Of a stretch of DNA of 54,253 nt, positions 3,875-10,345 are shown piece after piece. A program made the position numbers and the translations under genes. This DNA is from an uncultured Ardenticatenia bacterium (lineage in GTDB: Bacteria; Chloroflexota; Anaerolineae; 4572-78; NAK82). Where the stretch lies: contig CAKZLO010000077.1 of the NCBI GenBank assembly GCA_937127125.1, positions 1-54,253 of the forward strand, given 5' to 3'. Position 1 is the stretch's first letter; each line of letters begins with the position of its first letter. The notes beneath the pieces were generated by a model. It made no database searches. It saw only the letters and a list, made by a program, of their open reading frames with translations, and was not told the DNA's origin.

Positions 3875-5413
3875 TCATTTGGCGTAGTCTACGGCGCGCG
3901 TCTCGCGGATTACAGTCACTTTGATCTGTCCCGGATACTCCAACGTTTCCTCCACTTTGCGCGCAATGTCCTTAGCGAGTGTGATGGCTGCGTAGTCGTC
4001 CACTTCCTCTGGCTTTACTAGAATGCGGATTTCGCGGCCAGCTTGGATGGCAAAGCTCTCCGCCACACCTTTGAAGGAATTCGCCACTTCTTCCAAAGCC
4101 GTAATACGTTTGACATAGCTTTCCAGACTTTCGCGACGTGCCCCTGGCCGCGATCCCGATATAGCATCCGCAACCGAGACGATGACCGCCTCTAACGAGT
4201 CAACCTCGGTCTCTTGGTGGTGTGCTGCTATAATGTCAACGACCTGCTGGCTTAACCCGTAGCGCTTGGCCAGCTCGGCGCCGATTGCGGCGTGGGGACC
4301 TTCCATCTGGTGATCCACAGCTTTGCCGATGTCATGTAATAAAGCACCAGTCTTAGCGAGGCGCACATCTGCCCCTAGCTCGGCAGCCAAGATGCCTGCG
4401 ATATGAGCGCATTCCAGTGCATGCTGGTACTGGTTTTGGCCATAGCTGGTGCGATACTTCAGCCGGCCGATTAGCTTGATCAGCTCAGGATGCAATCCAG
4501 GTATGCCTACTTCCACGACCGCACGTTCGCCAGCCTCGACAATATCTCTCTCAACTTCTTCCTCGGCCATTTCAACCACTTTTTCAATGCGTCCAGGATG
4601 GATGCGCCCATCGGTGATCAATTTGTTCATAGCCACACGCGCCACTTCTCGTCGCACCGGGTCAAATCCAGAAAGGATAATGGTCTCAGGCGAGTCATCC
4701 ACGATCACATCGATCCCAGTTGCATTCTCGAAGGCGCGGATGTTACGCCCCTGACGGCCTATAATGCGTCCTTTTATCTCGTCGTTGGGCAGTGGGACGG
4801 CGGATACCACTGTATCAGCAACCTGATCGCTGGCGATGCGCTGCATGGCCAGTGCGATGATCTTACGCGCGCGACGCTCACCTTCCGCACGCGCCTCTGC
4901 CTCCACTTCGCGGATGACACGTGCCATATCCTGACGTGCTTGTTCCTCTACTCTTTCCAGAAGGAGTTGTGTCGCCTGTTCCTGTGTCAGATTGGCAATG
5001 CGTTGCAACTCTGCCAACTGGGCTGTATACAACTGCTCGATCTCGTTGGCACGCCGGTCGAGTGCGCTCTGGCGTTTGTTGAGGGCACGCTCGCGATTTT
5101 CGATGTTCTCCAAACGTCGGTCAAGTGTCTCTTGTCGTTTTTGCAAGCGCTCTTCCTGACGTCGCAGCTCTGCGCGTTTCTGGCGTGCCTCCTCCTCGAG
5201 CTCATCGTGCAGGCGCATCACCTCTTTCTGCGCTTGCAGGAGCATGTCTTTCCTTTGTGCTTCTGCCTCCGCCAGAAGGCGTGCTGCCTCTGCTTCTGCT
5301 GACTTAAGACGTGACTCAACAAGATACTGTCGTATAAAGTATCCGATGAGGATACCCAGCACACCCAAGCTGATACCAAAGGCTATCATTGTCAAAAGGT
5401 TACTACCAAACAT
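3875..5413 (-). CDS. rny: Ribonuclease Y
   Basis: A 512-residue membrane-anchored endoribonuclease that starts mRNA decay in many bacteria lacking RNase E. All parts are visible: an N-terminal transmembrane helix (about 5-25), a long charged coiled coil (about 30-200, rich in Arg/Glu/Gln), a KH RNA-binding domain with GRIIGRQGRNIRAFE, and an HD domain with the metal-binding HDIGK in LLHDIGKAVDH. The end, VTVIRETRAVDYAK, matches the family's usual C terminus. The length is typical. The gene starts 28 bp after recX and is preceded by a GGGAG ribosome binding site. The recX-rny pairing is seen in other bacteria, though no functional tie is proven. Confidence 0.95.
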   Translation of the reverse strand: MFGSNLLTMIAFGISLGVLGILIGYFIRQYLVESRLKSAEAEAARLLAEAEAQRKDMLLQAQKEVMRLHDELEEEARQKRAELRRQEERLQKRQETLDRRLENIENRERALNKRQSALDRRANEIEQLYTAQLAELQRIANLTQEQATQLLLERVEEQARQDMARVIREVEAEARAEGERRARKIIALAMQRIASDQVADTVVSAVPLPNDEIKGRIIGRQGRNIRAFENATGIDVIVDDSPETIILSGFDPVRREVARVAMNKLITDGRIHPGRIEKVVEMAEEEVERDIVEAGERAVVEVGIPGLHPELIKLIGRLKYRTSYGQNQYQHALECAHIAGILAAELGADVRLAKTGALLHDIGKAVDHQMEGPHAAIGAELAKRYGLSQQVVDIIAAHHQETEVDSLEAVIVSVADAISGSRPGARRESLESYVKRITALEEVANSFKGVAESFAIQAGREIRILVKPEEVDDYAAITLAKDIARKVEETLEYPGQIKVTVIRETRAVDYAK

Positions 5414-5441: not shown

Positions 5442-6080
5442 TTATTCCTCATTATTTGTATGTAAGGCCTGGCAGACGCGATGATAAACGACACGGATCG
5501 TCTCATAGTCAAAGCCACGCCGCGCCAGGAAATCGGTAAGCTTGCGTCGCAATTCTTCTTTGCCAAGCGCTCTCCAGCGTGACAATTGCGGTTCCACAGC
5601 TTGCCAAGCTGCTTCTTCATCATTTTGCTCGCTGACCACGTCGCGCACAAGCTCGTGTTCCAATCCCTTGCGACGCAGCTCTACGCTCAGTGCGCGCCGA
5701 CTGCGCGGACGAAAGCGCTGACGGTTTTCCACCCAAAAGCGGGCAAACGTTTCATCATCGAGGTAACCGGCTTGTTCCAGGCGCGCCATCGCGTTATTCA
5801 CTGCGTCTTCGCTAAAGTGTTTGCCTCGCAAATATTGTTCCATCTCAGCACGACTGCGCGGTCGGTAACGCAAGAAACGGATTGCCTGGTCGTAAGCCCG
5901 ATCCCTTTCATCCTGCGTCTGCAGCTCAGCAATCTCCACATCTGATAGCACTTGCCCGCGACGTAAGCGTGTTGCTGCAATCACCGCCGACAATCCGAAA
6001 GCGTAGGTTCCATCCAAGTATACGTTAACGCGCTCCTTGTTGCCTTTCTGAAACTTGAGCGCTGTAACGATACCTCCCAT
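5442..6080 (-). CDS. recX: Regulatory protein RecX
   Basis: A protein of 212 residues that modulates RecA filaments in homologous recombination and the SOS response. It shows the three-helix repeats of RecX: RAYDQAIRFLRYRPRSRAEMEQYLRGK, then GYLDDETFARFWVENRQRFRPRSRRALSVELRRKG, then a C-terminal DFLARRGFDYETIR. I place the start at the ATG encoding MGGIVTALKFQ because GAGGAG sits about 6 bases upstream and the preceding in-frame residues look non-coding (Cys-rich, unconserved). An N-terminal extension as in the Firmicutes form (KERVNVYLDGTYAFGL) is present. recA is not in the window. Confidence 0.9.
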   Translation of the reverse strand: MGGIVTALKFQKGNKERVNVYLDGTYAFGLSAVIAATRLRRGQVLSDVEIAELQTQDERDRAYDQAIRFLRYRPRSRAEMEQYLRGKHFSEDAVNNAMARLEQAGYLDDETFARFWVENRQRFRPRSRRALSVELRRKGLEHELVRDVVSEQNDEEAAWQAVEPQLSRWRALGKEELRRKLTDFLARRGFDYETIRVVYHRVCQALHTNNEE

Positions 6081-6119
6081 ACGCTGCTCCTCGATCTTGT
6101 CAATGCTGCTCACTACGCT

Positions 6120-6555
6120 GAAAATAGACAAGCTGTGACACCTTACGCCACAGCTTGTCCGCTCAGCAGAACAGAAAAGCAAGCATATGCACTTGTACTT
6201 CCTTGCCCGAAGGGGCAACTCCCTCGGGCCGAAACCACCTTGCTCGATCTATCTACCTGCTCATCTCCTTACGGGCAGGCTGCGAAATCACTTCGCTGTC
6301 CCTCGATTAATCTGGTGGGCCGGCCGAAAGGTGTCATTGCTCTTCTGACTGTGCATATCAGCAGCATAGCTGCACCTGGCAACCTAGCTGAGCTCACTTT
6401 AAAAGATATGAAACTGCCACGCCAGACTCTTTATGCCATCTACATAGCTGGCGCTGGGTTCCTTCAAACTGTGGCGACACGGCAACCCATCGTGCCACGT
6501 CATACTTGTAAAGTTCTCTGCTCCAAATCTGGAGCACAAGTATAACTTTTCTTTT
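6120..6555 (-). ncRNA. Candidate structured RNA or recX leader of unknown class
   Basis: About 430 bp upstream of recX carry no convincing protein but many hairpins when read on the minus strand. Examples are CGCCAG...CTGGCG, TTGCCCCTTCGGGCAA, GCGAAGTGATTTCGC and CCTGC...GCAGG. The stretch ends in a strong 11-bp stem followed by TATTTT, about 45 bases before the recX start. I compared it by eye with RNase P RNA, tmRNA, SRP RNA, 6S RNA and several riboswitch consensus cores and found no match. It may be an independent RNA or an attenuating leader for recX-rny. The boundaries are guesses from the promoter and terminator. Confidence 0.4.
6127..6159 (-). terminator. Terminator-like hairpin upstream of recX
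   Basis: GACAAGCTGTG and CACAGCTTGTC form a perfect 11-bp stem with an 11-base loop. On the minus strand the stem is followed by TATTTT. It would end a transcript coming from the structured region before recX, or act as an attenuator. Confidence 0.6.
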
Positions 6556-6561
6556 CATAAT

Positions 6562-6590
6562 AGTCTACTCTACTCTTACGTAGAATGCAA
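6562..6590 (-). promoter_or_regulatory. Possible minus-strand promoter for the structured RNA / recX unit
   Basis: Read on the minus strand, TTGCAT (6590-6585) and TAGACT (6567-6562) are separated by 17 bp; TATTAT lies just downstream as an alternative -10. The -10 match is weak. Transcription would start near 6555. Confidence 0.35.
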
Positions 6591-6642: not shown

Positions 6643-6880
6643 TAAGATAAATAGAGGCAAAAATTGACGAGCTCCTAGTGCTATTTGTAGCCGCAGGATA
6701 TTGCTTTCCAAGCGATACGTTGTACGATTGATTTTGCATTATGCACTGAATCTCTGATCGGTTGTTGGTAGCGGCGCACAGCGTTTCGGCGGAGGTAGCT
6801 TGACAGCAAAATCTTGCCGATCTACTTAATCTGAGCTTCTTCTTTCCGGGGTGCGAACGAGATTGGTTGGAGCTTCTCAC

Positions 6881-8561: not shown

Positions 8562-9023
8562 ATGACAAAGCTGGCGCTGGCGATTGCTTGCATTGCATTT
8601 TTGGCGGTCGTGGGGTTCGCATTGCATGTCGCCAATTTTACCGCCTATTTGGGTGACGATCCCACGGCCTGTAACAACTGCCACGTGATGGACACTGCCT
8701 ACGAAAGCTGGTACCACGGTGGGCATGCCAGGTGGGCCACGTGCAATGATTGTCATACCCCTCACGAGTTGATTCCCAAATACATGACGAAGACCGAGGC
8801 AGGGTTTCGACACGTCACCGCGTTTGTGTTCGGAGATATCCCTCCGGCCATCCGCACTCGCGATTCTTCCAAGGAGGTTATTCAGCAGAATTGTATACAC
8901 TGCCACCAGGCTACGGTGGAGGATGTGGTGAACGGATCAATGAAGTTTGATACATACTGTTTCGAGTGCCACCGCCACGTGGCACACGGCGTGCGTGGAA
9001 TCGCATTAGCACCATCTCAATAA
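8562..9023 (+). CDS. nrfH: Cytochrome c nitrite reductase membrane subunit NrfH (tetraheme)
   Basis: A 153-residue tetraheme quinol dehydrogenase of the NapC/NirT/NrfH family. It passes electrons from the quinol pool to NrfA. One N-terminal membrane helix (about 5-28) is followed by four CxxCH heme sites at residues 37-41, 61-65, 111-115 and 133-137. In NrfH heme 1 is bound by an unusual Met just after the motif; here CNNCHVM provides M43 in the right place. Length is typical for NrfH. A GGAG ribosome binding site precedes the ATG. nrfA follows after 14 bp, so the pair forms the NrfHA complex on the outer face of the membrane. Confidence 0.95.
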   Translation: MTKLALAIACIAFLAVVGFALHVANFTAYLGDDPTACNNCHVMDTAYESWYHGGHARWATCNDCHTPHELIPKYMTKTEAGFRHVTAFVFGDIPPAIRTRDSSKEVIQQNCIHCHQATVEDVVNGSMKFDTYCFECHRHVAHGVRGIALAPSQ

Positions 9024-9037
9024 CGAGGGAAGAGCCA

Positions 9038-10345
9038 ATGAGACGCATTTCTCTTTCTGCACTGATATTGACTGCTATCATTGTCGTGCTGGCAGGCGCA
9101 CTTGTTGCCATATTGCTCTTTGTAGCTAGCCAGCCTCCACCACGGCGTGGCATCCAACCTTTAGTCGAGATAGCTCCCTATGAGCCAGATTCAGCAAAAT
9201 GGGGACTAAACTTTCCCAACCAATATTCAACCTTCCTGCTAACCGAGCAGAATGCCATTTCCACGACTTACGGTGGCTCGGCGCTGATCTCAAAGCTTGA
9301 GCGAGACCCTAGATTGGTCACCCTGTTTGCGGGAATGGCTTTCGGCGTGGATTATAACGAAGAGCGTGGTCATCGATTGAGCCTCAAGGATGTCCGAGAG
9401 ACTCGACGCTTGAACGAAAAAACACCCGCTACGTGCTATTCATGCAAGAGTGCCAATCCCCCTGCCTTGTGGGCTGAGATGGGAATGAGGGAATTTGGTA
9501 AAGTAAAGTTTTCCGATATGAGTGCGCGCATCACGGAACCTGTTGGCTGTGCAAACTGCCACGAGGCTAACACAATGCGCCTAATTGTAACCAACCCGGC
9601 ACTGGAAGAGGCGCTGGCCGCCCAAGGCAAGGACTGGCGCAATTTCACACGTCAGGAGATGCGCACGGTTGTGTGCGCCAATTGTCATGTTGAGTACTAT
9701 TTTCAGGGTGATGATAAGTATCTGGTCTTTCCTTGGAGTCGTGGCACTCATATTGAAGGGATTGCACAGTACTATGCCGATACCGGCTTTGAGGATTGGA
9801 AATACCCTGAAGCTGGTACCTCTATGGTCAAGATACAGCATCCCGAATATGAGTTGTATACAGCGGATAGTACCCATTATCGAGCCGGCGTGTCCTGTGC
9901 AGACTGTCACATGCCCTATGCGCGCGATGGTGCTGCCAAGTTTTCCTCTCACAACATCAAGAGTCCTTTGCTGATGGCAGAGGTTGCTTGTGGCGCGTGT
10001 CACACTGACGTCGCATACGTGGTAGAGCGCACGAAACGCATTCAGGACCAAGTCCACGAAACAATGTCGGCGGCAGAAGATGCTCTCATCGCTGCGATCG
10101 AATCTCTCAAGGCAGCAGCGACAGATGAAAGTGCTGATCAAGTTCAGCTGAACGAAGCGCGCAGGCTCCATCGTGAGGCACAGCTGCGTTGGGATTTTGT
10201 TCTATCTGAGAACAGCATGGGTTTTCACAATCCCGAAGAAGCTCTGCGCATTCTGGCTGTTGCCATCGACATGGCCCGTCAAGCGCAACTCAAGGCAATT
10301 GCCGCTTCTGACGCTGCCTTGCTTGCTAAGGCACTACAACAGTAG
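9038..10345 (+). CDS. nrfA: Ammonia-forming cytochrome c nitrite reductase NrfA
   Basis: A 435-residue pentaheme enzyme reducing nitrite to ammonium with six electrons. The active-site heme has the diagnostic lysine motif CYSCK (133-137). Four CxxCH sites follow at 171-175, 213-217, 287-291 and 318-322. The Tyr after the third motif (CHVEYYF) and His in KIQHPEYE fit the catalytic Tyr and His of the family. An N-terminal hydrophobic segment (about 5-30) exports or anchors it. I placed the start at the ATG at 9038, with GAGGGAAGAG just upstream, rather than at an earlier in-frame start inside nrfH. No maturation genes for the CxxCK heme (a dedicated heme lyase) are in the window. Confidence 0.96.
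   Translation: MRRISLSALILTAIIVVLAGALVAILLFVASQPPPRRGIQPLVEIAPYEPDSAKWGLNFPNQYSTFLLTEQNAISTTYGGSALISKLERDPRLVTLFAGMAFGVDYNEERGHRLSLKDVRETRRLNEKTPATCYSCKSANPPALWAEMGMREFGKVKFSDMSARITEPVGCANCHEANTMRLIVTNPALEEALAAQGKDWRNFTRQEMRTVVCANCHVEYYFQGDDKYLVFPWSRGTHIEGIAQYYADTGFEDWKYPEAGTSMVKIQHPEYELYTADSTHYRAGVSCADCHMPYARDGAAKFSSHNIKSPLLMAEVACGACHTDVAYVVERTKRIQDQVHETMSAAEDALIAAIESLKAAATDESADQVQLNEARRLHREAQLRWDFVLSENSMGFHNPEEALRILAVAIDMARQAQLKAIAASDAALLAKALQQ

Follow-up and report, generated by a model that had tools for sequence, protein, structure and literature searches.

What is the function of the long, hairpin-rich region that precedes recX in the genome of an uncultured Ardenticatenia bacterium? 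In the window (the whole stretch of 54,253 nucleotides that was analysed), positions 6120–6590 had been described in the initial annotation as non-coding DNA with many stable stems, a terminator-like end and a possible promoter, and its hairpin-rich, non-coding character is borne out. The minus strand, which is the strand of recX, folds over these 471 nt with −179 kcal/mol (z −5.7; 0 of 100 shuffled sequences are as stable), and the plus strand gives z −4.9; the minus strand is the meaningful one. Homologous DNA occupies the same position in the sister species (G002), with 78% mean column identity. Insertions and deletions between the two sequences break every reading frame, so that no single frame is kept and a coding sequence is ruled out; no conserved protein encoded by the 6120–6555 region was found. 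A multi-copy element is also ruled out, as the region is single copy in the genome.

The putative recX leader spans roughly 430 bases of the minus strand (6555–6120), as judged by its folding and its position upstream of recX. A candidate promoter, TTTGCA (6591–6586)-N18-TAGACT (6567–6562), lies inside a block that is conserved with the sister species; the promoter scan of the window also gives an alternative pair, TAGACT-N17-TATACT, at 6567–6539. Upstream, the neighbouring gene (plus strand, at 6851) encodes a methyltransferase and is divergent, so that a dedicated promoter is needed for the leader in this genus. From the candidate promoter and the terminator hairpin, a transcript of roughly 430–450 nt is predicted, in agreement with the length of about 430 bases proposed before. 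Sequence and fold place a 5′ hairpin, GCTCCAGATTTGGAGC, at 6520–6535; it is followed by the putative antiterminator element (6465–6476), a structured interior recognised by its folding z-scores (6160–6464) and an intrinsic terminator. The terminator-like end consists of a hairpin at 6127–6159, with a 14-bp stem of −22.6 kcal/mol, and the U-tract UAUUUUC at 6120–6126, which is regarded as weak because a simple terminator scan missed the hairpin. Hairpin and U-tract together end 40 nt upstream of the start codon of recX (6080), and a ribosome-binding site, GAGGAG, is found at 6087–6092. The recX gene itself (5442–6080, minus strand) matches Pfam RecX_HTH1, HTH2 and HTH3 above cut-off, and rny (RNase Y; 3875–5413, minus strand; Pfam and NCBIfam TIGR03319) lies downstream of it. 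Further along the window, on the plus strand at 8562–10345, two ORFs were read by eye as multihaem cytochromes, NrfH- and NrfA-like.

The main structural feature of the leader is a long-range helix, P1. Close to its 5′ end, the spacer contains a short element whose sequence is the complement of the terminator 5′ arm, like a copy of the terminator's own 3′ arm. In the window, the P1 5′ strand CGCCACAGUUUG (6476–6465) forms 12 contiguous base pairs with the terminator 5′ arm (6157–6146), which is the P1 3′ strand, and this pairing excludes the terminator. Across related loci the element changes where the arm changes, as in the co-varying pairs GAUCAUAGCU/AGCUAUGAUC, AGCCGCAGU/ACUGCGGCU, GUCACAGCUUUU/AAAAGCUGUGAC and GCUGUAGCCGU/ACGGCUACGGC. 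The best partner lies within the first fifth of the spacer in 38/63 loci, and the partner score is higher at the start of the spacer than in its middle in 23/30; the distance from the 5′ element to the arm has a median of 305 nt (range 146–664). The possibility that the P1 5′ strand is half of a duplicated terminator was rejected, as no local complement stands clearly above random.

The covariation was assessed by partner permutation, in which the best ungapped complement in each locus is scored with the locus's own arm and with the arms of other loci, the best-match search being equal on both sides; gapped duplex energies compared with shuffles were too noisy and were replaced by this score. 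For 59 recA-linked loci, the own-pair score is 1244, compared with 1022 ± 23 for swapped partners, and the best of 5000 permutations reaches 1116. After de-duplication on the spacers, about 53 recA-linked representatives give z 7.7–8.2 and about 34 recA-unlinked representatives give z 4.9–5.9, each with 0/10,000 permutations. Twelve new recA-linked loci, few of them usable, provide a weak replication (216 versus 198.5 ± 9.0), and the pooled de-duplicated sets were used instead. De-duplicating the recA-linked set also on the recA coding sequence leaves only 10–12 loci, with z 3.1–4.1 (13/10,000). No covariation of this kind is seen among 54 ordinary terminators taken from the window and related loci (z 0.6; 810 of 3000 permutations reach the score). 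The stringent P1 score of at least 22 is attained in 57 of roughly 140 loci tested (~40%); loci below it may have imperfect helices, may have lost P1 or may never have had it.

Structure prediction agrees with these pairings. RNAalifold was applied, blind to P1, to family alignments truncated where the terminator 5′ arm ends; for eight of the nine families it recovers pairing between this arm and the 5′ element. Where P1 is strong, its mean pairing probability in sequences cut at the arm is 0.88 with the native interior versus 0.68 with a shuffled one (20/24 loci). The 7-bp P1 core of the window has a pairing probability of 1.00 in its native context versus 0.64 with a shuffled interior; in the sister species the P1 core is 7 bp only and is not favoured in silico (0.24 native versus 0.33 shuffled). 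The mean folding z of the interiors is −2.9 over 61 loci, and what they have in common is a folding that brings the ends together, not a sequence. With a median of −17.4 kcal/mol, P1 is slightly less stable than the terminator (median −20.7 kcal/mol). In the window, the P1 state is the minimum-free-energy structure at 12–16 nt beyond the arm, and the terminator is better by 7–8 kcal/mol from 20 nt on; this predicted order, P1 and then terminator, would fit the needs of a co-transcriptional choice, with energy margins that lie near or within the error of the folding models.

Additional helices were seen around P1 in some families. In the spacers of L007, L008 and L009, a further long-range helix lies immediately within P1 (GAGCUUG/CAAGCUC), and the block CUCGGAGAMCUUUC is conserved; in L008 and L009 this helix continues as GGUUCGUCGAU/AUCGACGAAC. 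In the L187–L202 group, a sequence-conserved inner helix, GUUGNNGAACG/CGUUCUCAAC, stands beside P1 and is common to neighbouring families. A local hairpin often ends 0–4 nt before the P1 5′ strand in L009, L011, L012, L028 and L031, and could stack on P1.

We consider it likely that the element is a cis-acting transcription attenuator, that is, a leader RNA of recX that works as a terminator/antiterminator switch and has no conserved core for binding a ligand. An intrinsic terminator (hairpin 6159–6127 and its U-tract) stands close upstream of the gene, and it is opposed by a mutually exclusive antiterminator helix that covaries with it, whereas the control terminators are negative. This reading draws on properties computed directly from the loci: the architecture, the locus-specific covariation, its absence from ordinary terminators and the linkage to recX. 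The functions first suggested, either a structured RNA of a new kind or attenuation of the recX-rny unit, are supported in that neither of the refuting outcomes named with them came about: Rfam gives no hit, and relatives retain the structure.

The leader does not correspond to a known RNA family. By eye it had matched no core of RNase P RNA, tmRNA, SRP RNA, 6S RNA or common riboswitches, and the Rfam search returns no family at the gathering threshold; below it, sX6 alone appears as a weak hit, with 15.3 bits against a cut-off of 40. The element in 40 related loci has no Rfam match at gathering or permissive thresholds. RNase P RNA (RF00010) and 6S RNA (RF00013) do not match at the leader, and the genome has its copies elsewhere (G000:C76:884-1310, 96.4 bits, and G000:C44:8079-8260, respectively); for tmRNA, ARAGORN finds only a tRNA-Thr within the window. 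For a metabolite riboswitch, a conserved aptamer core would be expected, and neither a cross-family k-mer above the shuffled null nor an Rfam match was found. No class-wide aptamer motif emerged from k-mers or from all-against-all BLAST, and profiles reach neighbouring families only. The interior thus lacks a class-wide motif, and its homology is confined to families and near neighbours; a riboswitch built on a conserved aptamer is therefore ruled out. The leader resembles the large structured RNAs and riboswitches of Rfam in being hundreds of nucleotides long, multi-branched and closed by pairing of its ends, but differs from them in that its closing helix shares the terminator arm.

The distribution of the element was examined in 186 non-redundant recX loci taken from the G-numbered genomes and GTDB contigs; the named loci are nearly all from Anaerolineae or unclassified Chloroflexota MAGs, with a few labelled Bacteroidetes or Candidatus Methanoperedens. 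recA lies directly upstream in the same direction in 93 of the 186, and no recA occurs in the available stretch in 92. The recA–recX spacer of the linked loci has a median of about 400 nt (most 200–850 nt, maximum 851 nt). An intrinsic terminator is present before most recX genes of the class Anaerolineae, and its 5′ arm carries the core GCYGTGG in 78/141 arms (45/75 recA-linked and 33/66 unlinked loci). A few Anaerolineae loci (L041, L048 and L117) have recA and recX adjacent, without a leader. In the genome of the window (G000), recA is found on another contig without spacer RNA (L139, G000:C11), where a downstream acetyltransferase-like ORF overlaps it by one base. The upstream ORFs of the other unlinked loci are diverse and include, as judged from their translations, uridine-kinase-like, divergent malic enzyme, release factor 3 and TilS sequences. 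recX is the constant neighbour of the element.

It is conceivable that the element is a free-standing structured non-coding RNA with its ends paired by P1, the gene of which lies before recX by chance, recX being expressed by leaky read-through. Some loci do have a dedicated promoter 350–570 nt before recX together with a terminator, as an RNA gene would, and the interiors fold better than shuffled sequences. However, P1 uses the terminator's own arm, so that the finished transcript should hold the terminator and not P1. A class-wide conserved core is absent, the linkage to recX persists as the upstream neighbours change, and in the recA-linked loci such an RNA would need to be processed from the recA transcript. 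We therefore regard this explanation as unlikely.

The region might also be an extended recA 3′ region, in which an ordinary terminator would fix the RecA:RecX ratio by partial read-through without any switching. In other bacteria, recA and recX often share a transcript (PMC3062782), and the remaining Chloroflexota classes mostly have short recA–terminator–recX or terminator-less arrangements, with spacers of 20–120 nt and only two longer ones (329 and 435 nt). However, a fixed ratio leaves unexplained the covarying antiterminator helix, its absence from the control terminators and its persistence where recA is not upstream, and we think it quite improbable. Chance folding of non-functional intergenic DNA, to which the quick divergence of the interior and the failure of most families to align with each other might point, is contradicted by the folding z-scores, the covariation tests and the conservation within families, and is extremely improbable.

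RecA is the enzyme at the centre of both recombination and the SOS response, and RecX holds it back; the attenuator probably tunes the amount of RecX, a regulator of DNA repair. In the proposed mechanism, the leader would be made as RNA from a start near 6560 in the genus of the window, and elsewhere from the recA promoter or another dedicated promoter. The P1 5′ strand would be transcribed early, and the interior would then fold and bring it near the 3′ end of the leader. On emerging, the terminator 5′ arm could immediately engage the 5′ strand already in place, forming P1 and causing antitermination and read-through into recX; alternatively, it would wait for its own 3′ arm, and the intrinsic terminator would form. 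If both states occur in the cell, the balance between them, shifted by a signal such as a protein, a ligand or the speed of transcription, would set RecX output relative to RecA. More tentatively, and with less than even probability in our estimation, this could be a switch used throughout Anaerolineae that responds to a signal connected with DNA damage or with transcription. By way of a long-range antiterminator, and with no conserved aptamer, it would control RecX and thereby the activity of RecA filaments.

Terminator/antiterminator leaders, such as those surveyed in PMC2965389, likewise place an intrinsic terminator ahead of the gene and oppose it with an antiterminator helix that cannot form at the same time. 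The recX leader differs from those described there in the distance of the P1 partner and in lacking a conserved sensor motif. A term search of that survey gives no mention of recX, recA or Chloroflexi, and a term search of another broad survey gives none of recX. In Mycobacterium tuberculosis (PMC3062782), recX is expressed either behind recA or through a promoter of its own, as appears to be the case here; in mycobacteria, however, the recA and recX coding regions overlap and there is no long structured leader. A literature search for recX with RNA-level control or with Chloroflexi found no matching description in PMC, from which subscription papers are mostly absent, and the novelty of a recX attenuator is provisional. 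With a leader of this kind before recX across Anaerolineae, and a reduced one or none at most of the other Chloroflexota loci that were compared, the RecA/RecX system would gain a layer of control at the level of RNA. The leader would also be an attenuator kept in its architecture, an end-to-end helix against a terminator, while its sequence diverges, a case that sequence-profile searches such as Rfam miss.

In the recA-unlinked loci, the element often lies behind a conserved promoter-like sequence. The pattern TTGTGCA-N-CATAAT, or one near to it, occurs in 18/86 unlinked versus 1/93 linked loci; a Fisher test on 17 versus 1 gives p = 2e-5, a guide value only, as the unlinked loci are partly related. 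In 11/16 loci with this pattern, the inferred start places the beginning of P1 at +23 to +29. In L187, L189, L195, L199, L060, L063, L200 and L202, the promoter-like sequence TTGTGCA...TTGTGCATAAT lies at about −400 to −340 from recX. It amounts to two direct copies of TTGTGCA spaced about 17 nt apart, and possibly also serves as an operator.
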